Positions 7,129 through 50,009 of a stretch of DNA of 64,000 bases are shown here, piece by piece. Below the pieces are notes generated by a model that was given only the letters and a program-made list of their open reading frames with translations, was not told the DNA's origin and made no database searches. The translations under genes were made by a program, and so were the position numbers. Positions within the stretch are counted from its first letter, which is position 1. Each line of letters opens with the position of its first letter. Origin of the DNA: Pseudonocardiales bacterium (GTDB taxonomy: Bacteria; Actinomycetota; Actinomycetes; Mycobacteriales; Jatrophihabitantaceae); the NCBI GenBank assembly GCA_030840295.1, contig JAVEET010000030.1, forward strand, positions 1-64,000, given 5' to 3'.

Positions 7129-8352
7129 TCAGCCGATCACCGGCTCGCCGCTGCCTTGTCGTCGGGCGGTACGTCGATCGAGTAGCGAGACCACTCGCCC
7201 AGTGGCGGACGCCGGCGCTTCTGTCATCGGATTGGTGTCCGCGACGAGTTCCTCGGGTGTGCGCGCGGTTACGGTTCGAAACAGCTCGGTGGGCACTCGG
7301 CACTGGGCAATTAGTAACGCCTCGTCGATGCCCTCTTGGTCCAGTAGTTCGACGGCTTTCGGCAGTAGCGATGGGAGCTCGATCGTCTTGATGAGACCTG
7401 GTTCGTCACGGCGCCAACCTCGAGCTGAGATTGTGGTCATGGCGTTGCGATAGGAGACATCGCTCAGGCGGCCAAGTCGGCGAGCTCGGAAGAGCAGCGC
7501 CTGCATGCTGACGCCCCATCGCTCCTTCAGCTTCCCTAGGTTGATCCACACATTGCCGCCCATCGTGGCTGGTAGTGCGTCGATAATCTCGGCCGCTGGC
7601 ATGAGCAGCTCGGATGCGAAGCGATGCGCCTGTTCTTCGACGATGCGACCGCCCGGTTCGGCGTCACCGTGCATGATCAAATGGCCCAGCTCGTGCGCGA
7701 CATCAAAGCGCTGGCGGTAGTAGTCCCACTTGATCGGGTTGAGCACTACCACCGGCCGAAGCCGGCTGTCGAACGAGTAGGCATCGACTGAGGCCGCTTG
7801 CGGCGGGCTGAACACGACCAGGATTCCGTGATGTTCAAGCAGGCGCACCAGGTGCCCGACCGGGCCGATACCGATCTCCCATTGTTCGCGTAGCAGCTGG
7901 GCAGCACGCTCCGGACCGTCACCGTCGAGCTCGTCGACGGCGACTGGCAAGCTCGGTAGTTGCAGCTCTGGCAGCTCGACATGACGCTCTAGGCTGCTTG
8001 CGATATCGACCGCCAGTTGCCCATAGGCGAATGCCTGATCACGAGCAAGCTGACTGGTCGAACGTAACGACCGAAAGTGCGGAGTCGTACTCAGCGCAGC
8101 CACGTCATCGGAGCGGACCGCGAAGAAGCCCGGTTCAACTGACAGACTCAGCGCAAGTTGAGCGACCGTCGCCGCAGTCGGACGTTTGGCACCCGACTCC
8201 CAGGCTGCGACCGCGGTCGCACTCTTGTCGACCCTGATTGCAAGATCACTCTTACGCAGGCCGGCGAGGTGACGAGCCATCGTCAGGCGTGCCCCGTCGA
8301 AAAGGGCGGCGACTTCGGCACTGCGATCAGGTGAGCGAGTCATGTCGCTCAC
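7129..8352 (-). CDS. XRE helix-turn-helix / ImmA-IrrE metalloprotease fusion
   Basis: 407 residues. An XRE-type HTH covers about 18-75 (LAIRVDKSATAVAAWESGAK). The zinc-protease motif HELGHLIMH lies near 217, characteristic of the ImmA/IrrE (COG2856) family, which cleaves repressors or controls toxins. GTG at 8352 overlaps the upstream stop (GTGA); the ATG at 8343 is an alternative. Translational overlap with the 271-residue upstream gene suggests a functional pair, for example regulator plus partner, in the middle of the defence operon. It may act as a protease switch controlling the cluster; this is inference from family and position. Confidence 0.85.
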   Translation of the reverse strand: MSDMTRSPDRSAEVAALFDGARLTMARHLAGLRKSDLAIRVDKSATAVAAWESGAKRPTAATVAQLALSLSVEPGFFAVRSDDVAALSTTPHFRSLRSTSQLARDQAFAYGQLAVDIASSLERHVELPELQLPSLPVAVDELDGDGPERAAQLLREQWEIGIGPVGHLVRLLEHHGILVVFSPPQAASVDAYSFDSRLRPVVVLNPIKWDYYRQRFDVAHELGHLIMHGDAEPGGRIVEEQAHRFASELLMPAAEIIDALPATMGGNVWINLGKLKERWGVSMQALLFRARRLGRLSDVSYRNAMTTISARGWRRDEPGLIKTIELPSLLPKAVELLDQEGIDEALLIAQCRVPTELFRTVTARTPEELVADTNPMTEAPASATGRVVSLLDRRTARRQGSGEPVIG

Positions 8353-18646: not shown

Positions 18647-20044
18647 GTGGCGATTTGGCGAAGTGCAGAGGTTGAAGCGGTCCTCGGCGGCAGCTTGGAC
18701 AGCGATGGATTGAGCGAGGCTGTGCTGCAGCGTTTGATCGACACAGAAACGTCGGAGAGGGAGCAGATCGAGTTCAAGGGTCAGCGCTATAACAAGGCGG
18801 AGGCCGGCAAGGACGGCTGGACCGCTGAGCAAGAATTCGCCAAGGACGTGTCCGCGCTGGCCAATCATCGGGGTGGGGTCCTCTTTCTCGGTGTGACGGA
18901 GAAGGCGGGCATCGCTCATTCGCTGACGCCGCTGACGTCGACCACAGCCGAGAAGGAAGAACAACGGCTGAGATCGGCCCTGGCCAACCACATGACGCCG
19001 CTGGGCGTCGCGGATTTTGTGCCGATTCCCATCGCGGCCGGAGGCTTCGCCCTCGCCGTTGTGGTGCCTCCGAGCCTCCGCGCTCCCCATGCGGTCGTCA
19101 CCAAGATCGGCACCGACAACCGTCGCCCGCTGCGCTATCCGGTACGTCACGGCACCGACACACGATGGCTGGAAGAGTCCGAGGTCGCCGAACGCTACGT
19201 GCGGCGGCTCAGGGCAGGAGAGTTGGAAGCAACCCATCTGGCCACGGTGGTGCGATACGGAATGGACGCACTGCAGCTCGCCGAGAACATCTGGCTTTAC
19301 GTGGCCATCGTCCCGGAGATCGCGACGATCGAGCGGATCGACCGCCAGACGATCTTCGCCAACCAGCAGTGGCTCGAGGATCAGGCGGTCGAGACACCGC
19401 TCAGCGAGGCCATCTTTGCAAATCTGCGGGCGATGGCCGCGCCCGGCCGGACGGTCATCGGTCGGCAGTTCGATGGCACGGATCCGGCCATGAAACCAGA
19501 CGATGTGCATCTTGAGCTCCACGCCGATGGTTCAGCCTTCGTCGCAACGGCGATCGCGTTGCACACCGCCGACCCGGAGACTGGTGGCGAGGCGCGTGCG
19601 GTCGGCTTGCAAACCCTCACACGCGACGCCATTCCTCTTATCGAACTGGCCGGACGCTGGGTGACCCATCAAGCGGCTGTGCCGGGCACCGCCCGGCTGC
19701 AAGCAGGCCTCTTTGACGCAAGCGGGACGGATGGTCGCTTCGACGAGCCGGTCGAGCTGCAATCAGTCAATGGTGTCGGGCAGATCCGGCGCGTGCCGAA
19801 CACGCGCCGCCTGACAGACGTGGCGCCAACGACCGAGACTGTCTACGACCTGACCGGACGTTTGACGACGCGAGGAGCCGTGGCGGTGGCCTCGGTGGTG
19901 ATTGATGGCCTGCTGCAATGGTTCGGCCTGGCCGACTGTCCGTTCCTCGCGCGGGACGGCTCGATCCGACTCGGGCCGTGGCAGCGCGACTGGCAGCAGG
20001 CAGTCCAGAAGTGGGCGGCCAAGCACGACGTCCCGATCGTCTAG
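18647..20044 (+). CDS. Schlafen AlbA_2 domain ATP-binding/DNA-binding protein
   Basis: 465 residues. The AlbA_2 signature is clear in the N-terminal third: EREQIEFKGQRY, then FAKDVSALANHRGGVLFLGV. Proteins with this domain are found as regulators or as parts of phage-defence loci. The region from about 200 on is not recognised. GTG start at 18647, only 3 bp after the DUF488 fragment. The next gene begins 11 bp downstream, so the two are probably one operon, transcribed away from the SNF2 operon. Role as defence component is inferred from neighbours. Confidence 0.8.
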   Translation: MAIWRSAEVEAVLGGSLDSDGLSEAVLQRLIDTETSEREQIEFKGQRYNKAEAGKDGWTAEQEFAKDVSALANHRGGVLFLGVTEKAGIAHSLTPLTSTTAEKEEQRLRSALANHMTPLGVADFVPIPIAAGGFALAVVVPPSLRAPHAVVTKIGTDNRRPLRYPVRHGTDTRWLEESEVAERYVRRLRAGELEATHLATVVRYGMDALQLAENIWLYVAIVPEIATIERIDRQTIFANQQWLEDQAVETPLSEAIFANLRAMAAPGRTVIGRQFDGTDPAMKPDDVHLELHADGSAFVATAIALHTADPETGGEARAVGLQTLTRDAIPLIELAGRWVTHQAAVPGTARLQAGLFDASGTDGRFDEPVELQSVNGVGQIRRVPNTRRLTDVAPTTETVYDLTGRLTTRGAVAVASVVIDGLLQWFGLADCPFLARDGSIRLGPWQRDWQQAVQKWAAKHDVPIV

Positions 20045-20055
20045 GGCGCCGGGAT

Positions 20056-20901
20056 ATGGAGCCGCGCAGCCTTGTCCACATTCTCAACCTGCCGAAGCGG
20101 GAACGTTTCGCAGTCATGGCTGAGGGGCTGACCCTCCTGGCGGAGCACATCGGTACCCTGCACACCGACCTCGATCGACTCCGCGATCAGGGCCGCCAGC
20201 GAGCGATGGCGGCCATCGATGTGCTGGCCAGCGAGGAAGCCGCCAAGGTCTTGATCTTGCTCGATGTCGCGCGCATGGGGTGGGGTGACCAAGAGGCAGT
20301 CGATCGGCAGCTGAAACGCTTCTACAATCACCTGGCCCGAGGCATCTACACGCGCGTCGTCGATGGCAGGCCAGCAGATTTCGCCGAGGTCCGCCGTTAC
20401 GTGGACGGCCTCCGCCAGAGCCACTTCTTGGACGGGCCGAACGACGTCGATTGGATCTTCCGGAACGAAGTACTGGCCGCACGTGAGGACAGCCTGTATG
20501 TCGATTACCTATCAGCGGAGGGCGGCGACTACTGGGCTACCCCGGCCAGCCGGGACGACATAATGATCAGCCAGCCCAGCATGATCATCAGATTGGTCAC
20601 CGCCCTCGACCGCATGGGCTGCCTCAGCATGGACGGCCTGCAGATCATTGAGGCAGTCTGGCGTGGGCAGACGATCGAGGATGAGACCCGCTGGCACGTG
20701 ATCGAAGACCTCAACCAGAAGGTTGTTGACCAACTGGCCCAGCGAGGGCTGGTGAAGGATGGCGCGACCGATGACGATGCGTACCTGGTCTACCAGCAGT
20801 GGACGTTCCCGCTCGGCCACATGGACCTGCACCAGACGGAAGTGAAGCGCGCCGAGCTATTGGCGCGGCGCAACCGGTGGCTTGCTGACCAAGAGTGGTG
20901 A
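20056..20901 (+). CDS. Unknown helical protein, possibly AbiV/HEPN-like
   Basis: 281 residues, mostly helical. The segment AMAAIDVLASEEAAKVLILL near residue 50-75 resembles the conserved region of AbiV-type abortive-infection proteins (aliphatic helix with EE-x-K), followed by a conserved-looking RFYNHLARGIY. The match is by eye and weak. ATG at 20056 is used; the frame is open upstream but overlaps the Schlafen gene. It is 11 bp downstream of that gene and likely co-transcribed. Alternative: an uncharacterised partner of the AlbA_2 protein. Confidence 0.55.
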   Translation: MEPRSLVHILNLPKRERFAVMAEGLTLLAEHIGTLHTDLDRLRDQGRQRAMAAIDVLASEEAAKVLILLDVARMGWGDQEAVDRQLKRFYNHLARGIYTRVVDGRPADFAEVRRYVDGLRQSHFLDGPNDVDWIFRNEVLAAREDSLYVDYLSAEGGDYWATPASRDDIMISQPSMIIRLVTALDRMGCLSMDGLQIIEAVWRGQTIEDETRWHVIEDLNQKVVDQLAQRGLVKDGATDDDAYLVYQQWTFPLGHMDLHQTEVKRAELLARRNRWLADQEW

Positions 20902-22403: not shown

Positions 22404-22832
22404 TCAGGAGCTTCTATCGCGCCCCGCACGACGAAGCAGGCGAGCGATCAGGCTGCGCTTCGTATCGTCCGGCTTTGGCACGAACGCCGGTGACGCCGAG
22501 GCCCCGATTAGATCGCGGGTACGCGTGCGCCCTGATTCGATCTGCTGCCTTGTCCACTTCCCAGACCAGCGGACCTCGTTCTCGATGATCCAGTAGTGCG
22601 ACTGGCACGGAAAGCTCCAGTTCCCAATCGAGTCGGCCAGCGATACCGTCTCGCCGTCGTATGTGACGCGCCAGCGGTGCGGTGCGAGTGGCGTGAATAC
22701 TTCGTTGCCACATCCGCAGCAGCACTTGTGCCCCACCATCGCGAATGGGATGCAGACATAGACGACGCCTTCGTCCATGTGCTCGGGGATGGAGTCGACG
22801 AACTCGTGCCTGACGCGTTGCAGCTTGCTCAC
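22404..22832 (-). CDS. DUF6527 family protein, third gene of the ubiquitin-like cassette
   Basis: 142 residues. The core HEFVDSIPEHMDEGVVYVCI and the Cys-rich HKCCCGCGNEVFTPL, then FPCQSHYWI, agree with DUF6527, a probable zinc-binding family that co-occurs with E1-like and ubiquitin-like genes in bacteria. The GTG at 22832 overlaps the stop of the E1-like gene (GTGA), so it is co-translated with it. The longer open frame to 22928 lies inside the E1 gene and is rejected. Basic C-terminal tail (KRSLIARLLRRAGRDR). Role in the conjugation pathway unknown. Confidence 0.75.
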   Translation of the reverse strand: MSKLQRVRHEFVDSIPEHMDEGVVYVCIPFAMVGHKCCCGCGNEVFTPLAPHRWRVTYDGETVSLADSIGNWSFPCQSHYWIIENEVRWSGKWTRQQIESGRTRTRDLIGASASPAFVPKPDDTKRSLIARLLRRAGRDRSS

Positions 22833-24019
22833 GTCTGGTCCTCGTTGAGCAGCGTGTTGCCGCTGACGGCATAGACGCTGTAGTGCTCCCGCTCCATGTC
22901 CGCATAGAACCCAGCCAGCTTCTTCCACTTGATGACGGCAAGGGTTGCGTTCAAGGCGTTGAGATCAGCGATTTGAACGTTGTGCTTGTAGTCGTTCTTC
23001 TCAGCGGGGTCGCCGAAGGGGATGCGACGGTACTCATGCACGTGCTCGCGATGCTGCGGCGTGCTCGTCGTCGTGCGCACCTGGCCGGTCAGCGCACCAT
23101 CGACTTCTTCGACCCCGATACCGACGTCGATGAATGGCAGGTCGAACTCCTCCAGCTTGCTCACGAGCATCTTGCGCACCGAGCCCTTGTCCACCGTCAG
23201 GAAAACGAAGCTCATGCCGCGCAGGCTCTCCACGTTGTCCTCGGTGACGTAGGTGTCATGCGGCACTATGTAGCGGCGCATCGGCCGATACAGATCAGCG
23301 AAGTAGTCGACCTTTTGCGGCACCGTAGCCAGCTTGTCGCGGCTTGGTGCGCCGGGCGAGCGGAAGGCGTTGTGCTGTACGAAGCGGTCGCCGTCGAACA
23401 GATGGATCTCGCTGACCGGCGTCTTGGCGACAAGGTCGAGCACGTACGCCCCAGTCCCGCCGAGCCCCACGATCGCTACCGGACCGGTTTTGAGCTTTTC
23501 GGTGACCTCCGAGGTGCCTGCCCGTACCGAGGCTGTGTCGGCGTACTCAAAGACCGACTCCTCTGGATCGTCTGGCGGGATGACGGGGAACGTTCGCGCC
23601 GTCACATCCGGCTCAAGCTGCTCGGCGTGTACGGATAGCAGCGCCACGTAGGTCGTCATCTTGTGGTGGTAGTCGCGGTAGCGATGCCCGTCTTCTAGTG
23701 GCTTTTTGGAGAACATGAAGTTGACCGGGACGACCCCAACGTTGGCAGCACCTCCCGCTATGACGGTGTGTAATGGGGCCCCGTCCCTCGTGCAGGGCGC
23801 TTCGCCGGCGAAGTACAACTCGTGACTCGCCGGCTGCACGGTGACGTCACCAGCCAACTCAAGCGCGGTGACCAAGGTGCCGCGCAGGACCTGCTGATTC
23901 GCGTTGACGTAGGGGATGCCGCGCACGAGGAGGACGTTGTCTGACTCGATATGCAGGTCGTAGCCCTCCTCCTGCAGCTGCAGGAGGTCCAAGCTACGAG
24001 CGATCAGTCGCTGTGACAT
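22829..24019 (-). CDS. ThiF/E1-like adenylyltransferase with DUF6791-type N-terminus
   Basis: 396 residues. The N-terminal 150 residues (VRGIPYVNANQQVLRGTLVT) resemble DUF6791; the C-terminal half is a ThiF/E1 adenylation domain with nucleotide loop VGLGGTGAYVLDLV near 185 and IHLFDGDRFVQHNAFRSPGA. E1 proteins activate the C-terminus of ubiquitin-like or sulfur-carrier proteins with ATP. Only one cysteine is present (C76, in the N-terminal domain), none in the E1 domain, so the usual catalytic cysteine is absent or supplied by C76 or a partner. Overlaps the upstream beta-grasp gene by 26 bases and the downstream DUF6527 gene by 4. Adenylation is likely; conjugation is inferred. Confidence 0.85.
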   Translation of the reverse strand: MSQRLIARSLDLLQLQEEGYDLHIESDNVLLVRGIPYVNANQQVLRGTLVTALELAGDVTVQPASHELYFAGEAPCTRDGAPLHTVIAGGAANVGVVPVNFMFSKKPLEDGHRYRDYHHKMTTYVALLSVHAEQLEPDVTARTFPVIPPDDPEESVFEYADTASVRAGTSEVTEKLKTGPVAIVGLGGTGAYVLDLVAKTPVSEIHLFDGDRFVQHNAFRSPGAPSRDKLATVPQKVDYFADLYRPMRRYIVPHDTYVTEDNVESLRGMSFVFLTVDKGSVRKMLVSKLEEFDLPFIDVGIGVEEVDGALTGQVRTTTSTPQHREHVHEYRRIPFGDPAEKNDYKHNVQIADLNALNATLAVIKWKKLAGFYADMEREHYSVYAVSGNTLLNEDQT

Positions 24020-24266
24020 CGAAGATCATGCCGTCCTTAACCCTGACGCTGCCGCCCGCAGTGAGGGAGCCCTCGGACTTGTTGCCCTCGCCGCGTCGGT
24101 ACGTCACGGTGATGTCGACGTTCTCACCGGTCGGCGGCGTGGTGAAGGCCAACGCGACCAGCTGCTCGTAGGTGATGTCCTTCTCAGACCACTGCTTGGC
24201 CCGAGTGTTGACGTAGATCGTGACCTCGTGTGCCTTATTGTGTTCGGCTGCTTCTGCGTTCGTCAT
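23994..24266 (-). CDS. Ubiquitin-like beta-grasp protein (multiubiquitin family type)
   Basis: 90 residues. VTIYVNTRAKQW, SEKDITYEQLVALAF, DITVTYRRGEG and the ending KDGMIFDVTATDRS match the pattern of bacterial multiubiquitin-domain proteins, though only one beta-grasp unit is present. It does not end in Gly-Gly; the last residues are ATDRS, so either processing or adenylation of a different terminus would be needed. ATG at 24266 has GGAGGTCATC directly upstream, a strong SD. It is the first gene of a three-gene leftward operon with the E1-like and DUF6527 genes. Substrate modifier role is inferred from this context. Confidence 0.75.
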   Translation of the reverse strand: MTNAEAAEHNKAHEVTIYVNTRAKQWSEKDITYEQLVALAFTTPPTGENVDITVTYRRGEGNKSEGSLTAGGSVRVKDGMIFDVTATDRS

Positions 24267-24609
24267 GATGACCTCCGGATGTCGTACTTTGCTGTCAGAG
24301 TTTTGACCTGGCGTCAGCGTCCCATGCACCACCGACAGTTTTGGGCAGGCCGGGCTCGAGTAAGACGAGACAGCCGCCATCGTGTCGCGCCGGTCAGAGG
24401 GCCCCTCGCGCCGGACGACGATAGCTACGCAGAGGTCAGCTTGCCGACGATCGCTGAGACGTTGTGCACTGTTCGATCAGTCGTAACCGTCGACTGGTAG
24501 GCCTGGTGAATGACGCAACGCACCATCACCCCATTTGCCAACCGTGGCACAGGCACGGAAGATCGGGATGCCTAGAACCTCCGGCAGTCCGCTGCCTGCG
24601 TAGTCCGTC
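24267..24609. other. Intergenic region between two divergent genes
   Basis: About 340 bp with no credible gene on either strand. It must contain the promoters of the ubiquitin-like operon (leftward) and of the coiled-coil gene (rightward), but I see no clear -35/-10 pair, repeat or hairpin. Confidence 0.5.
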
Positions 24610-25746
24610 ATGTCGACGTCTACCGATACCCTTAGGGCGGCCGTGACGATCGAGCACGACGGGAAGTTGTGGCGGCCAAAGCGCGGCGCGACCGCCAGCG
24701 CGGAGGAGTTCATCGCAGCCCGTGCACTGTTCATCGCGTTGCACGCTGACGCTCGGTGGAACCCGTGGGTCCTTGACGATCGTGCCGCTGATCTCGACGA
24801 GGCGATCGCGATCATCGAGCAGTGGACACGCGCTGAACCGAACCTCAGACGGCTCACTGCAAAGCAGTTCGATGCCCGGATGGCTCGCTCGGACAGAGAG
24901 TTTCGCGCAAAGCAAGCGAAGGCGGAACAACGACGCGAGCGCGACCGTGAGCGTCACGACCCCGACCGCGAAGCGGCCAGACTGGCACTGCTCGAACAGC
25001 AGTCGCGGCTGGACTACGAAGTCACTGAGGTCGCCGCACTGCGTGACGGTACGAAGTTCCCAGGACTGACTAACAGTAGGTGTGACGGGGACGTCGCCGA
25101 GGGGGAGGCCACGATCGCGAGACGCCGGGCCGAGATAGCTCGGCTGACGATCGTGGCGGGCGATCTTGAGGACGTCGTGGATGAGCGGGGCTGGCTGCCG
25201 CACGACCGTCGTGACCTGATGCTGTGCATCTTCCAGTCGTGCCGTGCCGTAGAGGTTCGGGAGCTACGATCCAGGACTACCGAGCTCTCCCAGCTCGTGA
25301 AGGCGTCGCAGGACAAGGCGGAGCGCGCGGAACACCGAGCCGAGCTGAGGCTGGCGACGACCCGGTTGGAGAAGCTGCTGGCGATCTCGGAGCTGACACC
25401 CGACGACATGTGCTCCGAGTGCGCGACACCGGTGTCCAAGCATGGATGGAGTACGCCGCCAAGCGAAGGCCCGTGTCCTGCGTGGCCGGGATGGGCAGCT
25501 CAGACCCGGAAGCTCCGGGAGATGTTCGGCTCCTTCGTACGGGCATCAGCGCCGCCTGCGCCACCGCCGCCACCGAGGCCCGTACCGCTGGCCGTGATCC
25601 CATCGCGCTTGCCGATCGCAGAAGTGCTGACACGCCTCAGCGAGATACAGGCCAAGTACCCGGATGCCGAGGTGCGTCGGGGCAACGCCAACAAGTGGGA
25701 GATCTGGGCGGGCAAGAGCAGCGAGCAGTCCTCAGAACCTGACTGA
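24610..25746 (+). CDS. Coiled-coil protein with a possible Cys pair and proline-rich linker
   Basis: 378 residues, unrecognised. Residues about 95-140 are highly charged helix (RAKQAKAEQRRERDRERHD), and 165-260 continue as helical repeats. A CSEC pair near 278 followed by H and C (KHGWSTPPSEGPCPAW) could bind zinc. A proline run near 318 (APPAPPPPPRPVP) links to a short C-terminal domain. ATG at 24610; SD not obvious. Located next to the ubiquitin-like cassette but on the other strand. Confidence 0.65.
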   Translation: MSTSTDTLRAAVTIEHDGKLWRPKRGATASAEEFIAARALFIALHADARWNPWVLDDRAADLDEAIAIIEQWTRAEPNLRRLTAKQFDARMARSDREFRAKQAKAEQRRERDRERHDPDREAARLALLEQQSRLDYEVTEVAALRDGTKFPGLTNSRCDGDVAEGEATIARRRAEIARLTIVAGDLEDVVDERGWLPHDRRDLMLCIFQSCRAVEVRELRSRTTELSQLVKASQDKAERAEHRAELRLATTRLEKLLAISELTPDDMCSECATPVSKHGWSTPPSEGPCPAWPGWAAQTRKLREMFGSFVRASAPPAPPPPPRPVPLAVIPSRLPIAEVLTRLSEIQAKYPDAEVRRGNANKWEIWAGKSSEQSSEPD

Positions 25747-27387: not shown

Positions 27388-30120
27388 TCAGGCACCGGTC
27401 GCCACGGCGTAACTCGCAAGCAAGCTCGCAGCTGAGAGGCTCGCCGATGGGGCCGTCTGGCACGCAATAGTGAACCCCGTCGTGTTCACAGCAGAGATGT
27501 ACAGGCCCAGCGCGGCCGTAGCAGCGTTATTCGGAGTGACCGTCACGAACGGCACGGTCTGAAACCCGCTCGCGTACGTGACAGTGCACAAGGCACCGGT
27601 CGTCGTGGACGTGCCGGTACCGAGCTTCACCTGGCCGCACTGGTTGCGTGAGTGGACGTCAACCGACGCCGCCGGCGGCAACGTGCCCACCGCGGAACCG
27701 TTAGCGATGGTCGGGGCGTTGCCGGTCATCCGCAGTACGGAGGCGTTGATCGTTTGAGCATTGTCGATGGTCAGGCTTGGAATGACGACTTGAGAGACAA
27801 CACAGCCGTTCACTTTCAGCTTCGTGGAACCGATGTAGCCGTCGTAGTCGGCGGCCCAACGATGCGTGGCGTCGACACCGACGACCTTGACACCGATGAT
27901 CGTTCCAGTGTTCGGGTCGCTTCCCACTTGGTCGATGTGGATTCCGATGGCGGTGTTGTCGAGGCCGATGCTGCCGTTGTAGATACGGCCACCGATGATC
28001 GTCCACCGGAATGACGCCGTCGTGAACCAGAACCCGTAGAGGGTCGGAGTATCTGGGTAGCAGCCGATGTAGATGTTGTCCGAGCCGCTGTCCTTGAAGA
28101 CGGTCTTCGGGAATTGCGCGGACACGCTGATCCCATAGCCGTGACCCGCGATATGCGTGTTGGCGCTCCCGTCAGTCTGGAACGACGTCTCAGGACCAAC
28201 CACGACATTGTCGATGAATGTTGAGTCGTAGCAGAACGACGTGGCGTAGATGCCGATGCTCCCGGTAACGACCGCGACGTCGATGGTCTTGTCAGCCTTG
28301 CAACGGCTGATCCGCATCTCATGGGTGCTCTTGGTTGCCCCAGTGTTGCCGACGACGAGTCCGTGCATATTTGGGTTCCGCCAGGTCACGCCGTCAATGT
28401 CGGAGGTGTAGCCGCTCATCACCTCTATGGCGTGGTCGGAGTGGTTGTTGCAATCGAGATAGCCGCCGACGATGAACTTGTCCCGCCACCTAAGCGTCAG
28501 AGCGCCGACAACTATCAACGCACCCGTGAACGTCGCGGTGGCGCGAATGGTGGCGCCGTGCATCCGCAGGCTCGCGTTGTTCGGGAGGTTCAGTTGCGCG
28601 CTGACCAGATACGTCCCAGGCGGGATGACCGCAACGCTTGACGCGGCATCCGCCGCGGTGAACGCGGCTTGGATCGCAACCGTGTCGTCAGTGGTGCCGT
28701 CCCCCTTGGCGCCGTACGTCTTGGCATTGATGCCCGCGCCGACGTCGAGCCGTAGCGGGACATAGGTGCTAGACAGATCTGGAATCTGCGATGTCGGGAC
28801 GTGCGTCGTGCCATCAAGAGTGGCGACACCATTGGCCGCGCCCTTGTCGAACGTCGGGACTGCGCTGGCATCGGCGGCGGTCAGGGTGACCGCACCAGTC
28901 TTTCCGGCCACTGAGGTAACTGGGGCAATCGGTGGCGCTGCCCACTTAATGCCGCTGGCCTGGGTCGAATCAGCCGTCAGGACTTGGGTGTCGGCCCCGA
29001 GGCCGAGTTTGGTGTACGACGCAGCACCAGTAGCAGCCAAGAGGTCGCCCTTCGCGGTGAAGTCGGACCTGTGAACAACGGAGCCATCATCGGCCTTAGC
29101 GTTCAGTGCAACTTGGGTGACGGTTGAGATGGGCTTGTTAGCGTCCGACGTGTTGTCGATGTTGCCCAAGCCAACATCGCTACTCGTCAATGTGACTGCG
29201 CCGGTCTTGCCCGCCACGGATGAAACAGGGGCACTTGGTGGCGCGGACCAAGTAGTTGCGGAAGTGCTCGTCGCGGTCAGGACCTGGCCGGCGGTCGGGG
29301 CCGATCCAGGCATTGCGATGCCATTAACCTTGGCGACGGTCGGGCTCGCAGCCGTACCCGCCAGGTCACCGGCCAGTTGAAGTTTGCCTTTGGAGAGGGT
29401 GGTCGCATCTGGCGTGCCGGTACCGGCGGCGGTGTCAACGTAGGCCTTGGTGGTGGCATCGGTTGGATTGGTGGGCGTCGGGACAGTGACCGTGCCCGTG
29501 AACGTCGGAGAGGCCAGCGGCGCTTTTGCAGCCAGTCCGGGGACGGTGGGCGCCGCAGCCGTGCCGCCGAGATCACCGGTGAGTTGCAGGATGCCTTTGG
29601 TGGTCGGCGTGGCATCGGTGACGATCGTGCTGGTGAACGTGCTGGCGACCCACTTGCTTGATGGCGTGTCGAAGCTCAGGACTTGGCCGTTGTTTGGTCC
29701 AGGCGCATTGACATCGCTGAGTGCAGTCAGGGACGCGGGGGCGCCGACATCGGCTGCACTCAGCGTCACCAACCCGCTGGCATCCGGTGTCTTGCCGTTG
29801 ATCTCCTGCACCGACGAGTCGGCCTTGCCGAGACTCGCCTGAACGGCATTGGTCAGATCATTGACCGGAATGCCGCCCGCGGGTTTGGTGTACTTGGAGG
29901 CGACCTGCGACACGATGCTCTGAGTGGTCGGATCGAGCTTCACGTTCGTCACCGATCCGTCTGCGAGATTCGCCGTGGACACCGCGCCAGCGCCAAGGGC
30001 AACGTTGTCGATAACGCCAGATTTTAGAGTGCCGTCAGGATTGTGGGCTTGAGACAGGAAGTCGTTGAGGATGTTTCCCCAAGTTCCGTCATCTGATCCG
30101 GGATGTGGAAGGCGTGCCAT
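27388..30120 (-). CDS. Phage tail-fibre-like protein with parallel beta-helix domain
   Basis: 910 residues. The N-terminus MARLPHPGSDDGTWGNILND is a recognisable short leader; then come repeated tail-fibre modules (SVAGKTGAVTLTSSDVGLGN, TSDANKPIS, PLASPTFTGTV), and from about 460 a pectate-lyase-like beta-helix (TYGAKGDGTTDDTVAIQAAF, VIPPGTYLVS). Such proteins trimerise as tail or surface fibres that bind or cleave glycans. There are no other phage structural genes nearby, so it is more likely a surface or secreted adhesin-like protein of the cassette, or was captured from a phage. Its upstream neighbours are prepilin, Tat-signal and TatA genes on the same strand. SD is weak and far (GGAG 17 bases upstream). 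Confidence 0.8.
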   Translation of the reverse strand: MARLPHPGSDDGTWGNILNDFLSQAHNPDGTLKSGVIDNVALGAGAVSTANLADGSVTNVKLDPTTQSIVSQVASKYTKPAGGIPVNDLTNAVQASLGKADSSVQEINGKTPDASGLVTLSAADVGAPASLTALSDVNAPGPNNGQVLSFDTPSSKWVASTFTSTIVTDATPTTKGILQLTGDLGGTAAAPTVPGLAAKAPLASPTFTGTVTVPTPTNPTDATTKAYVDTAAGTGTPDATTLSKGKLQLAGDLAGTAASPTVAKVNGIAMPGSAPTAGQVLTATSTSATTWSAPPSAPVSSVAGKTGAVTLTSSDVGLGNIDNTSDANKPISTVTQVALNAKADDGSVVHRSDFTAKGDLLAATGAASYTKLGLGADTQVLTADSTQASGIKWAAPPIAPVTSVAGKTGAVTLTAADASAVPTFDKGAANGVATLDGTTHVPTSQIPDLSSTYVPLRLDVGAGINAKTYGAKGDGTTDDTVAIQAAFTAADAASSVAVIPPGTYLVSAQLNLPNNASLRMHGATIRATATFTGALIVVGALTLRWRDKFIVGGYLDCNNHSDHAIEVMSGYTSDIDGVTWRNPNMHGLVVGNTGATKSTHEMRISRCKADKTIDVAVVTGSIGIYATSFCYDSTFIDNVVVGPETSFQTDGSANTHIAGHGYGISVSAQFPKTVFKDSGSDNIYIGCYPDTPTLYGFWFTTASFRWTIIGGRIYNGSIGLDNTAIGIHIDQVGSDPNTGTIIGVKVVGVDATHRWAADYDGYIGSTKLKVNGCVVSQVVIPSLTIDNAQTINASVLRMTGNAPTIANGSAVGTLPPAASVDVHSRNQCGQVKLGTGTSTTTGALCTVTYASGFQTVPFVTVTPNNAATAALGLYISAVNTTGFTIACQTAPSASLSAASLLASYAVATGA

Positions 30121-46741: not shown

Positions 46742-48277
46742 ATGGCGCTTAAACGACCAAACGGAGAAGGTTCGATCTATCTGCGCAAGGATGGGCGCTA
46801 CGAAGGCGCTGCGTACTTGCGCACGGCGATGGGCAAGCGCAAGCGGGTGAGGGTCTATGGAGCGACACGCGAACTGGCCCACCAACGCTTGCTAGCTGAA
46901 CTCACCAAGGCACAGAAGCGAATCCCTGTACCAGATCAACCGTGGACGGTAGCCCGGTATCTCGACTACTGGATGTCTAACGTGGCAAAGGTCAAATTGC
47001 GACCGAAGACGTATGAGCTCTATGAGATGGTCGTCCGCACGCGCCTCAAGCCGGATCTCGGTACCAAGCGTCTGGCCCGACTTTCTGTCGCCGACGTTCA
47101 GTCCTACTTGAACGACGAGATCGAACGAGGACGGTCGGTGCGTAGCGCCCAACTGACGCGCACAGTCCTCAGCGCGGCTCTGACTCGAGCTAACCGCGAG
47201 GAACTGCTCAGCCGCAACGTCGCCCGGCTTGTCGAACTGCCGATCAGCGAACGAAAGGAAATTCAGCCGTGGACAGCTGACCAGGCCGCTACGTTCCTAG
47301 CTTCCACCGCTGATTCGAGGCTGCACGCAGCATTCGTGCTCTTAGTCCTCTACGGCATGCGACGCGGTGAAGTCCTCGGCCTTCGATGGGGCGATGTCGA
47401 CTTCAAAGATGATGTCATTCACGTGAGACAGCAGCTGCAGCGCATCGAGGGTGAACTCCAGCAGGGACCACTCAAGACGTCGTCCGGACGCCGAGACTTG
47501 CCACTACTCGAACTCGCGAAGGACGCACTCCTCGGTCATCGCTCGGCAGTGCCCGCGCCGGTGGAGGGTAGCGCGCTGGTCTTCACGCGTGGGACCGGTG
47601 AACCTCTTGATCCAAACGGGTTTACATCGACGTTTCACCGAGCTCGGCTAAAGACCGACCTGCCGCGGATCACGGTGCACCACCTGCGCCATACGGCAGC
47701 AACGATGCTCAAGAACCTTGGTGTTCCCGCACGCGATGCACAGGTCATTCTCGGCCACGCGCACATATCGACGACGCAGCAGCTGTATCAACACGCCAGC
47801 CTAAACGACCGGCGGGCGGCGCTGACCCGAGTCGAGCGGGCGCTGACGACGGCTGGTGCCTCTGGGCGTAGCCGTCAAAGACAGCCGTCAACGAGCAATT
47901 CCGTGACGGCTTTCAAAGGATTTCAATCTGGAGGGACCAGTGGGGCTCGAACCCACGACACCCTGCTTAAAAGCCTGGCTCACCTCAAGAGTCACCCCTG
48001 TTTGAGAAATCTGGCCGAGGGCGTCGAGAGGTGTCTGCGCCAATTGGCGCTTGGATCGGCTGCCGTCAAATCGAGCCGTCAGCTCACCCCTGTTCCCGTT
48101 TGGCCGCTCTACTTTTTGGTACCAAAATCGCAAGTCCTGCAACCCGGAGGCCACCATGACCGCACTGCCGATCTCGAACCAGGCACCGGACGCGGTGATC
48201 TACCTCCGCGTGTCGACCAAGGAACAAGCGGAACGGGGTGGCGAAGCCGAAGGCTTTTCGATTCCCGCGCAGCGTGA
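46742..48277 (+). CDS. Tyrosine integrase of the mobile element, extended through its att site
   Basis: Catalytic residues are readable: R near 207 (YGMRRGEVLGLRWGD), HxxR at 313-316 or 314 (VHHLRHTAA), H near 339 (LGHAHIS) and nucleophile Y349 (QLYQH). The N-terminal SAM-like arm region and zinc-free Arm domain precede. After about residue 375 the frame passes through a tRNA-Lys-like fragment (SGARTHDTLLKS, 47929-47973) and then 100 more residues of non-homologous sequence before the stop, so the native gene likely ended within or just after the tRNA fragment. Mobilises the element by site-specific recombination at a tRNA 3' end. Confidence 0.85.
   Translation: MALKRPNGEGSIYLRKDGRYEGAAYLRTAMGKRKRVRVYGATRELAHQRLLAELTKAQKRIPVPDQPWTVARYLDYWMSNVAKVKLRPKTYELYEMVVRTRLKPDLGTKRLARLSVADVQSYLNDEIERGRSVRSAQLTRTVLSAALTRANREELLSRNVARLVELPISERKEIQPWTADQAATFLASTADSRLHAAFVLLVLYGMRRGEVLGLRWGDVDFKDDVIHVRQQLQRIEGELQQGPLKTSSGRRDLPLLELAKDALLGHRSAVPAPVEGSALVFTRGTGEPLDPNGFTSTFHRARLKTDLPRITVHHLRHTAATMLKNLGVPARDAQVILGHAHISTTQQLYQHASLNDRRAALTRVERALTTAGASGRSRQRQPSTSNSVTAFKGFQSGGTSGARTHDTLLKSLAHLKSHPCLRNLAEGVERCLRQLALGSAAVKSSRQLTPVPVWPLYFLVPKSQVLQPGGHHDRTADLEPGTGRGDLPPRVDQGTSGTGWRSRRLFDSRAA
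47929..47973 (-). other. tRNA-Lys-like 3' fragment, likely attachment site of the integrase
   Basis: Read on the minus strand: loop CTTTTAA (anticodon TTT), GCAGG, GTGTC, T-stem GTGGG-TTCGAGC-CCCAC, then TGGTCCC and CCA. It lacks the D-arm and 5' half, and the anticodon stem 5' side does not pair, so it is not a functional tRNA. Elements that integrate at tRNA 3' ends leave such a fragment at one end. A complete tRNA-Lys at the other end is not seen in this window. Confidence 0.7.
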
Positions 48278-50009
48278 AGCGTGCCTGCGACGCGCCGAGC
48301 AGCTCGGCGCCCGGGTCGTAGAGGAGTTCCTTGACGCGGGCGAGTCAGCCCGTTCGTCCAGCCGGCCGGACCTGCAGCGCATGCTGACATACCTGGCCGA
48401 GGAGCCGGTCCGCTATGTCATCGTCCACAAGGTCGACCGTCTCGCCCGCAATCGCGCCGATGATGTCGAGATCAACCTCGCCATCAAGAAGGCCGGGGCC
48501 ACGCTCGTCTCGGTCACCGAGAACATCGACGAGACACCCTCCGGCATGCTGCTGCACGGCATCATGAGTTCTATCGCCGAGTTCTACAGCCAGAACCTCG
48601 CCGCCGAGGTTGTCAAGGGCACCGAGCAGAAGGTCCGCGCCGGTGGCACACCCACCCTGGCGCCCATCGGCTACCTGAACGTTCGTGACGTCATCGACGG
48701 CCGCGAGATCCGCACCATCACCATCGACGCTGAGCGCGCCGCGCACATCCGCTGGGCTTTTGATAGCTACGCCACCGGAAGCTGGAGCCTCAACCGGTTG
48801 GCCGCCGAGCTTGAGATCCGCGGACTGACCCGAAGGCCGACGGCCACCCGCGACGCCAAGCCGATTCCCGCCAACAAGCTCCACGGCATCCTCCGCAACC
48901 GCTACTACATCGGCTACGTCACCTGGCGCGGTGTCGAACACCCCGGCAAGCATGAGCCACTCATCGATAGCGAGACCTTCGAACGCGTCCAAGAGGTGTT
49001 GCGCGGGCACCGGCAATCTTCCACCCGGCCGCAGAAGCACACGCCATACCTAGCTGGCTCGCTACACTGCGCCCGCTGCGGCTCCAAACTGATCTACGGT
49101 GTCTCGACCGGCCGGCGCGGAGGCAGCTACGCCTACTGGCTCTGCCTTGGCAGACACAAGTACAAGAATGGCTGCGACCTGCCCTACCTCGCGGAAGAAC
49201 GCGTCGAGCAGGCAGTTGTCGCCCAGTGGCAGTCCGAGTCACTACCCCAAACGACCACCGACGCGATCCGTGAAGGCCTGCTCGCCGACCTGCAGGACTA
49301 CGCCGCGACGACCAAAGCCGAGAATCAACGACTCGACGAACGCATCCACGCCATCCGCAGAGAGCGCTTCAAGTGGGCAGAGAAGGCGATGGAGGAGAGC
49401 GTTCCACGCGACATCGCCAAGCAGAAGCAAGATGAACTGGCGGCCCAACTCGCCACCGCTGAGGAGCAGTTAAAACGACTCGACACCGCCGCAGGAGACC
49501 ACGAGCGCCTGATCACCGCCGCGACCGAACTCGTTGCCAATTGCGCCAGGGCTTACGAGGAAGCCGACGACATCACGCGCCGCGCCTACAACCAGGCATG
49601 GTTCGAGCGAATCTGCCTCGACATGACCGACCCGACGACCGTTGTCACCGCCGTCACCCGAACGGAGGTCATCGACGCGATCCAGACCGCGACCGTATCG
49701 GCGCCCAGATCCACCCAAACGGCCCGGGACGATGACCCCGAACCGTCCGCCAGAACGCCCCGAAATGACAAAGGACGCGGCGCCCTCGGCTACCGCGTCC
49801 TCTCTCGTGTCAGGGGTTCGAACGTGCCCTGTTTGGTGGAGCTGAGGGGATTCGAACCCCTGGCCCCCTCGATGCGAACGAGGTGCGCTACCAGACTGCG
49901 CCACAGCCCCCAACCACCGGTGAAGATTACCAGCCGGTCAAACGGCGTCGTCACACTGCCCGACGCATTGCCCGGTCGTCGAACTCTTCCTCTTGGTACA
50001 ACCCGGTGA
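48156..50009 (+). CDS. Large serine recombinase with frame running through tRNA-Ala
   Basis: 617 residues. Catalytic S20 in VIYLRVSTKEQ, then VDRLARNRADD, the Recombinase domain, a zinc ribbon (CARCGSKL, YWLCLGRHKYKNGCDL) and a coiled-coil C-terminal half, the layout of phage-type large serine integrases. ATG at 48156 with CCCGGAGGCC. The last 75 residues are encoded by the antisense of the tRNA-Ala terminator, the tRNA itself (VELRGFEPLAPSM, then RTRCATRLRHSPQ) and the end of sepX, so the original C-terminus was shorter or was fused by insertion here. It overlaps the integrase frame at its 5' end. Confidence 0.85.
   Translation: MTALPISNQAPDAVIYLRVSTKEQAERGGEAEGFSIPAQREACLRRAEQLGARVVEEFLDAGESARSSSRPDLQRMLTYLAEEPVRYVIVHKVDRLARNRADDVEINLAIKKAGATLVSVTENIDETPSGMLLHGIMSSIAEFYSQNLAAEVVKGTEQKVRAGGTPTLAPIGYLNVRDVIDGREIRTITIDAERAAHIRWAFDSYATGSWSLNRLAAELEIRGLTRRPTATRDAKPIPANKLHGILRNRYYIGYVTWRGVEHPGKHEPLIDSETFERVQEVLRGHRQSSTRPQKHTPYLAGSLHCARCGSKLIYGVSTGRRGGSYAYWLCLGRHKYKNGCDLPYLAEERVEQAVVAQWQSESLPQTTTDAIREGLLADLQDYAATTKAENQRLDERIHAIRRERFKWAEKAMEESVPRDIAKQKQDELAAQLATAEEQLKRLDTAAGDHERLITAATELVANCARAYEEADDITRRAYNQAWFERICLDMTDPTTVVTAVTRTEVIDAIQTATVSAPRSTQTARDDDPEPSARTPRNDKGRGALGYRVLSRVRGSNVPCLVELRGFEPLAPSMRTRCATRLRHSPQPPVKITSRSNGVVTLPDALPGRRTLPLGTTR
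49773..49800 (-). terminator. Terminator of the tRNA-Ala gene
   Basis: GGACGCGG (49773-49780) pairs with CCGCGTCC (49793-49800); leftward reading is followed by TTTGTC. It sits 33 bp beyond the 3' end of the tRNA. Confidence 0.65.
49834..49910 (-). tRNA. tRNA-Ala (anticodon CGC)
   Basis: Full cloverleaf on the minus strand: acceptor 5' GGGGCTG pairs with 3' CAGCTCC, including the G3-U70 pair that identifies alanine tRNA; anticodon stem CCTCG/CGAGG with loop TTCGCAT (anticodon CGC); T-stem AGGGG/CCCCT with TTCGAAT; encoded CCA end. It borders the core genome and is overlapped antisense by the serine recombinase frame. Confidence 0.95.

Follow-up and report, generated by a model that had tools for sequence, protein, structure and literature searches.

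Results

Organization of the locus

The window, by which we mean the whole 64,000-nucleotide stretch of DNA that was analysed, carries on its minus strand a single operon of about 1.9 kb (22404-24266) composed of a Multi_ubiq gene, a DUF6791-ThiF gene and a DUF6527 gene. The main reference for comparison is the Bub system, presented in outline in PMC13373217 (citing Ye et al. 2026 and Gong et al. 2025) as consisting of the Ubl BubA, the E2 BubB and the JAB-E1 protein BubCD. The features of the window copy are as follows:

24272..24276, minus strand: Shine-Dalgarno sequence GGAGG, 5 bases upstream of the Ubl ATG (sequence)
23994..24266, minus strand: Ubl, 90 aa, a single Multi_ubiq beta-grasp domain (Pfam PF14452, E 6.9e-18)
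22829..24019, minus strand: E1-like protein, 396 aa, with DUF6791 (residues 11-162) and a ThiF/E1 adenylation domain (about 167-396) (Pfam, NCBIfam, PDB, AlphaFold2)
23792..23794, minus strand: codon of Cys76, the sole Cys of the E1-like protein (sequence)
23708..23710, minus strand: codon of Ser104 in the FSxK motif of DUF6791, candidate nucleophile (52/52 conservation; weak profile pairing with Bub E2)
23189..23191, minus strand: codon of Asp277, predicted adenylation Asp (51/53 in the family, 9/9 Bub E1s)
22988..22990, minus strand: codon of Tyr344, aligned with the Tyr mutated in BubCD(D104A/Y370F) (51/53 in the family; hhalign)
22404..22832, minus strand: DUF6527 protein, 142 aa from GTG at 22832, zinc-finger-like (CxCGC...CxSHY) (Pfam PF20137, E 7.8e-22)

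The Ubl gene shares 26 bases (23994-24019) with the E1 gene, and the TGA stop of the latter overlaps the GTG start of the DUF6527 gene as GTGA (22829-22832); because of this second overlap the DUF6527 gene is best read as 22404-22832 and not from 22928. The Pfam matches for Multi_ubiq, DUF6791 plus ThiF and DUF6527 thus bear out the preliminary description, made from the letters alone, of three overlapping genes on this strand. Its statement that the cassette contains no E2 or protease gene also held, since Pfam identified neither an E2 nor a JAB gene in the cassette, and none is found in the annotated flanks of relatives of the DUF6791 type. The flanking genes of the window were likewise without an E2 or JAB match in a Pfam scan. 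In the source genome as a whole the Prok-E2_E model (PF14462) gave zero matches and one JAB was located outside the cassette, while the Prok-E2_B model matched neither this genome nor any control genome, which makes its result uninformative.

Genomic setting

On one side of the cassette, three minus-strand genes between 9346 and 18321 matched the HmaC (E 1.2e-27), HmaB (E 3.3e-42) and HmaA (E 6.1e-88) models and probably constitute an Hma-type defence system. An RmrA-like HTH-peptidase is encoded at 7129-8352 (E 3.7e-112). The defence island is extended on the plus strand (18647-20901) by genes for a Schlafen/AlbA_2-domain protein and, after it, an AbiV-like HEPN protein. To the right of the cassette a phage-type integrase lies near a tRNA-Ala gene (46742-49910, the tRNA at 49834-49910); no att repeat matching the 3' end of this tRNA occurs in the window. 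Directly upstream of the Ubl gene is a divergent gene of 378 aa with no family match (24610-25746, plus strand), and a repetitive 910-aa protein with the look of a tail fibre or pectate lyase is encoded at 27388-30120 (minus strand).

CapH/CapP, CapW and WYL-type regulators are associated with operons of this general kind: CapW or CapH plus CapP occur in 219 of 544 Bub operons, for which, according to the same source, protection against phage is yet to be demonstrated (PMC13373217). Among the relatives of the window cassette, CapH/CapP adjoin L062 and L051, L053 and L046 have weaker matches alongside, and at L049 the neighbour is a WYL regulator. Such regulators stand beside some relatives only, and not beside the window copy; where they do adjoin a copy they suggest a role in defence or stress.

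Recurrence and distribution

A scan of one genome per species returned 33 related loci, with Pseudomonadota, Verrucomicrobiota, Planctomycetota, Binatota and Saccharibacteria among the phyla represented, and in nearly all of them the order Ubl-E1-DUF6527 and the same overlaps recur. Since order and overlaps are repeated in dozens of loci from several phyla, the three-gene arrangement is not a product of chance. Relatives were also present in 116 plasmid records, ranging from Acinetobacter and Rhizobium to Streptomyces, Micrococcus and Cytobacillus. The annotated regions of sixteen of these records were read, and most consist of the bare three-gene cassette; in none of them do the annotations place a separate E2 or JAB gene next to a cassette of the DUF6791 type. 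Exceptions to the standard composition were L057, which has no annotated Ubl gene, L059, where the DUF6791 protein occurs without the other two genes, and L060, which is of the Bub type. As to single neighbours, a DUF2188 protein immediately precedes the Ubl gene in L062 (5500-5733), and L057 encodes a DUF3892 protein upstream of its E1 gene.

In the phylum of the window itself the family is sparse, being found in 3 of 396 sampled genomes and in 5 of 150 relatives, with the window genome counted in each. The cassette is therefore probably mobile, given that it is patchily distributed and often plasmid-borne. Carriage by phages was considered and rejected, as no match occurred in 50,697 phage records and only four IMG/VR contigs contained a relative.

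The adenylation domain

Pfam divides the E1-like protein into DUF6791 (PF20590, E 8.8e-46) and ThiF (PF00899, E 3.3e-09), and over NCBIfam it matches NF004805 (E 1.5e-164), a family named "hypothetical protein". Matches to the PADLOC E1-E2 and NCBIfam 6A-MBL models are confined to about 60 residues in the nucleotide-binding part. An AlphaFold2 model of the whole protein had a pLDDT of 86. Across the family alignment, G185, G187, G188, G190, D209, D211, R220 and K236 of the ThiF part are present in 53 of 53 sequences, N217 in 48 and D277 in 51; the Bub E1s agree closely with these conserved residues, and all nine carry the equivalent of D277. We take D277 to be the equivalent of MoeB D130, the spacing of the residues resembling that of the MoeB adenylation residues.

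BubCD was the best solved relative of the ThiF part in a PDB search, and its structures were aligned by Foldseek as well. In profile comparison the ThiF part and the Bub E1s matched with an E value of 5.9e-20. Y344, found in 51 of 53 family members and, as judged by eye, represented by a Tyr at the equivalent site in 9 of 9 Bub E1s, falls in the alignment on the Tyr that is changed in BubCD(D104A/Y370F), structure 9eav; here a two-residue numbering offset was deduced from the JAMM Asp in the BubCD alignment.

Conservation of C76

The preliminary description had drawn attention to a single cysteine, and indeed the E1-like protein has exactly one, C76, which lies in the DUF6791 part and leaves the adenylation domain without any. 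A first alignment of 34 sequences, found with peptide patterns and drawn from loci close to the query, showed C76 to be invariant in 33 of 33 close relatives. The wider set adds loci from a Pfam model search, a scan of viral contigs and a plasmid tblastn, and in the 52 sequences that cover the site C76 is retained in 41, with H in 6, R in 3, S in 1 and F in 1. Hence C76 as a universal catalytic thioester cysteine, a proposition that held in the first set, was broken by the wider family, and the suggestion that it carries the chemistry gave way with it, since the 11 homologues with H, R, S or F have intact cassettes. Where checked, the C76-less proteins are sound DUF6791-ThiF fusions with Ubl and DUF6527 genes adjoining. 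One of the homologues without C76 is the Rhizobium etli plasmid copy, L049. Replacement of C76 by another cysteine was also discarded: the alignment revealed no substitute Cys common to the C76-less proteins. Parsimony places no fewer than 4 changes at C76 on the tree, and well-supported branches force at least 2 of them. The loss of C76 in several related lineages suggests that the tagging chemistry probably does not rest on this residue.

It could instead be hypothesized that C76 is a true thioester cysteine, E2- or E1-like, in the majority that bears it, and that the H, R, S and F lineages use another route or are inactive. The retention of C76 in all close and most wider homologues, always after an invariant Pro, would fit such a division, as would its being the only Cys in the window protein; moreover, in the E2-like domain of the related 2006 type 6c the classical His is replaced by a Cys (PMC1779556). 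However, the replacements are independent, the cassettes around them are intact and they share no substitute Cys. In the predicted DUF6791 model the window C76 follows the fourth strand by about 5 residues, which would place it near the HPN position rather than the position of the E2 catalytic Cys. Taken together, we regard a clade-limited thioester as rather unlikely.

Fold of DUF6791 and the position of Ser104

A set of polar residues in DUF6791 is conserved more strictly than C76, comprising S104 (52/52), K106, H66 and K120 (51/52 each) and Y124 (53/53). If a nucleophile exists, Ser104 would be a better candidate than C76.

Modelled alone by AlphaFold2, DUF6791 reached a pLDDT of 88 and agreed with the model of the whole protein. 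The order of elements, namely helices, four strands, the C76 loop, short strands and a long helix (in outline helix-b-b-b-b-loop-helix), resembles in our reading that of an E2. In the Foldseek PDB search the top three matches were Atg10, a C. elegans UBC and Ube2g2 (E 0.19-0.34, TM at most 0.44), and E2 or UEV folds made up roughly half of the first 50 matches, none of them significant; in the viral set the ASFV E2 ranked fourth. With hhalign, DUF6791 and the E2 domains (Prok-E2_E) of nine Bub-type proteins were collinear over 107 columns in a weak match (E 0.084, probability below 1%), the control domains scoring worse (E 0.32-0.87). This weak alignment pairs S104 of FSxK with the Ser of an invariant WSRH in the Bub E2s. 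The UBC families of Pfam matched none of 32 DUF6791 members, and a relationship of DUF6791 to JAB was dismissed, the hhalign match having an E value of 0.32 over 12 columns only. On the model and these weak comparisons, the fused DUF6791 may represent an E2-like domain that has diverged.

Because the support for an E2 fold is weak, one should also consider that the E1 acts alone, with the acceptor attacking Ubl-AMP directly as in MoeB or MccB and with DUF6791 serving as a non-catalytic binding or dimer domain. The adenylation residues are the most nearly universal set in the family, and ThiF-type enzymes without a catalytic Cys exist, as is known for the family at large. Against this, the polar set of H66, S104, K106, K120 and Y124 looks like an active or binding site. 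We consider an E1-only route to be doubtful, to about the same degree as a clade-limited thioester.

The C-terminal end of the Ubl

The Ubl was correctly described as lacking a Gly-Gly end, its C-terminus reading ...TATDRS. By phmmer it matched a solved multi-ubiquitin protein, 9cd2 (E 7.7e-07), which ends in TDKS. A terminal Ser directly before the stop, always encoded by TCN, was present in 51 of 51 Ubls of DUF6791-type cassettes, this count covering the Ubls of the class whose end was read, and the aligned Ubls all have Thr at position -4 from the end. Where the genes overlap in the common frame, the leading T of the terminal Ser codon falls on a wobble position of the E1 gene, so that its constancy suggests selection acting on the Ubl end. 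Nevertheless, the Ubl end lies within the gene overlap and its constancy may partly reflect constraint from the E1 frame, the two effects being not fully separable. In L044 a second, opposite-strand Ubl copy (7426-7659, minus strand) ends in NNA and is the sole exception to the terminal Ser; it is perhaps a decayed duplicate.

In a Bub-type Enterobacter protein the E2 part is preceded by Gly229; BubA(155-229), as named in PDB titles, stops at an identical residue number, and this agreement fits a JAB-made maturation in the Bub type. The Bub Ubl thus probably has a Gly end cut by JAB, and the DUF6791-type Ubl, judging from the sequences, an encoded Ser end. As the latter already stops at its encoded Ser, presumably no protease gene is needed for its maturation.

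ThiF-like enzymes are also known, as a family, from sulfur transfer and peptide modification, and the E1-like protein has distant ThiF, MoeB and MccB matches, so the Ubl might be a sulfur carrier, or a C-terminal modification of it might lead to a small-molecule or peptide product. However, the Ubl has no Gly-Gly end, the E1 has neither catalytic nor zinc cysteines, and the best solved relatives of the two proteins are the BubCD E1 and the multi-ubiquitin Ubl. Sister operons, moreover, carry E2 and JAB domains, and regulators of immune operons adjoin relatives. We consider a role outside protein conjugation very unlikely.

The DUF6527 protein

Alignment of relatives revealed the conserved motifs H.C.CGCG and C.SHY in DUF6527, and the window protein bears the signature C69-x3-C73-x34-C108-x2-H111 (ORF numbering). 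From this motif we would guess at an E3-like chooser of target or acceptor.

Discussion

Proposed mechanism

Ubiquitin-like tagging is usually taught as cysteine thioester chemistry with a Gly-ended modifier. Our results favor, with moderate confidence, the view that the cassette is a stripped-down bacterial ubiquitin-like conjugation system and a sister of Bub. The Ubl would be made with its reactive end already exposed at the fixed Ser, and a JAB protease would be unnecessary. The ThiF domain, whose active-site residues are kept, would then adenylate the C-terminus of the Ubl with ATP. In place of a separate E2, the fused DUF6791 could take over the Ubl or steer the adenylate to its target, independently of C76, either by way of Ser104 if there is a covalent intermediate or otherwise by direct attack on the adenylate. 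The zinc-finger-like DUF6527 may help to select the target or acceptor in the manner of an E3. Finally, the neighbours of relatives suggest that the operon is probably induced by phage attack or DNA damage.

A more far-reaching version is that these cassettes form a cysteine-free branch of conjugation, in which the Ubl is bound to Ser104 of an E2-like DUF6791 through an oxyester, or the adenylate passes straight from it to the target, and in which an encoded Ser end replaces the Gly exposed by a protease. We offer this version tentatively and think it possible rather than probable. The preliminary description had held that the chemistry must depart from the textbook route; the lack of a separate E2 or protease gene agrees with this, but the adenylation residues are kept and the sister operons of the Bub type carry E2 and JAB domains, so that only part of the claim stands.

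What deserves emphasis is that a plasmid-borne cassette keeps its adenylation site without a universal Cys, a Gly end or a protease. Attention consequently shifts from C76 to Ser104 and the end of the Ubl. With three genes in about 1.9 kb, the cassette is small enough to rebuild in a laboratory strain, and the minimal needs of a ubiquitin-like pathway become directly testable.

Comparison with known systems

The operon type was already listed in 2006. Iyer et al., in note b to their type 6e, describe a polyUbl, an E1 in which a domain X replaces JAB, and a metal-binding protein (PMC1779556). The three-part make-up is the same, Frankia is listed there, and X is given as a beta-rich domain; the window E1 is likewise fused to a distinct N-terminal domain without a JAB match, and from position and description domain X presumably is DUF6791. 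The 2006 metal-binding signature, C-x3-C-x35-38-H-x2-C, is nearly that of the window protein, C-x3-C-x34-C-x2-H, in which the last two letters are swapped. A difference is that the window Ubl is a single domain and not a polyUbl, although one 2006 example is also single-copy. The 2006 type further lists an inactive E2/RWD-like protein, whereas the window cassette has no separate gene of that kind and its DUF6791 is only weakly E2-like. No paper naming DUF6791 or DUF6527 was found in the literature searched. Beyond the 2006 listing, the present analysis tests C76, draws attention to Ser104 and to how the Ubl ends, and sets the cassette against Bub.

BilABCD, as outlined in PMC11354881, also combines a bacterial Ubl with an E1; it has a separate E2 with a catalytic Cys and a JAB, neither of which was found in the window cassette. 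The N-terminal fusion of an E2-like domain to an E1 in Cap2 of type II CBASS, and in 6A-MBL, would be a shared feature if DUF6791 proves E2-like; unlike type II CBASS, the window cassette is without a cyclase and without a JAB.

A further comparison is with Bub, for which non-canonical intermediates have reportedly been described. Its PDB structures include 9ea4, 9ea5, 9ea8, 9eae and 9eav. In a plasmid operon of Robbsia, a gene for two Multi_ubiq domains joined to Prok-E2_E is followed by JAB-ThiF and DUF6527 genes, and the E1 matches Citrobacter BubCD with an E value of 2.3e-140. Seven further regions, judged by a ThiF protein of JAB-E1 length (456-471 aa), the JAB domain itself having been checked in Robbsia only, contain DUF6527, a Ubl and an E2 part that is either fused or encoded separately; in an eighth, L071, the ThiF protein is shorter and DUF6527 is not annotated. 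Bub and the window type have in common the Multi_ubiq Ubl, a homologous E1 domain, a DUF6527 gene after the E1 gene and the Tyr (Y344 versus Y370), and regulators of the CapH/CapP type accompany both Bub and relatives of the window type. They differ in that Bub operons encode Prok-E2_E, as a protein or a domain, and an E1 with a fused JAB, whereas the window type, with no match to either, has DUF6791 in their place, and in that the Bub Ubl seems Gly-ended after cleavage whereas the window-type Ubl ends in its encoded Ser. At the level of sequence, the shared core of the window type and Bub is Ubl, E1 and DUF6527, with DUF6791 standing where Bub has JAB.
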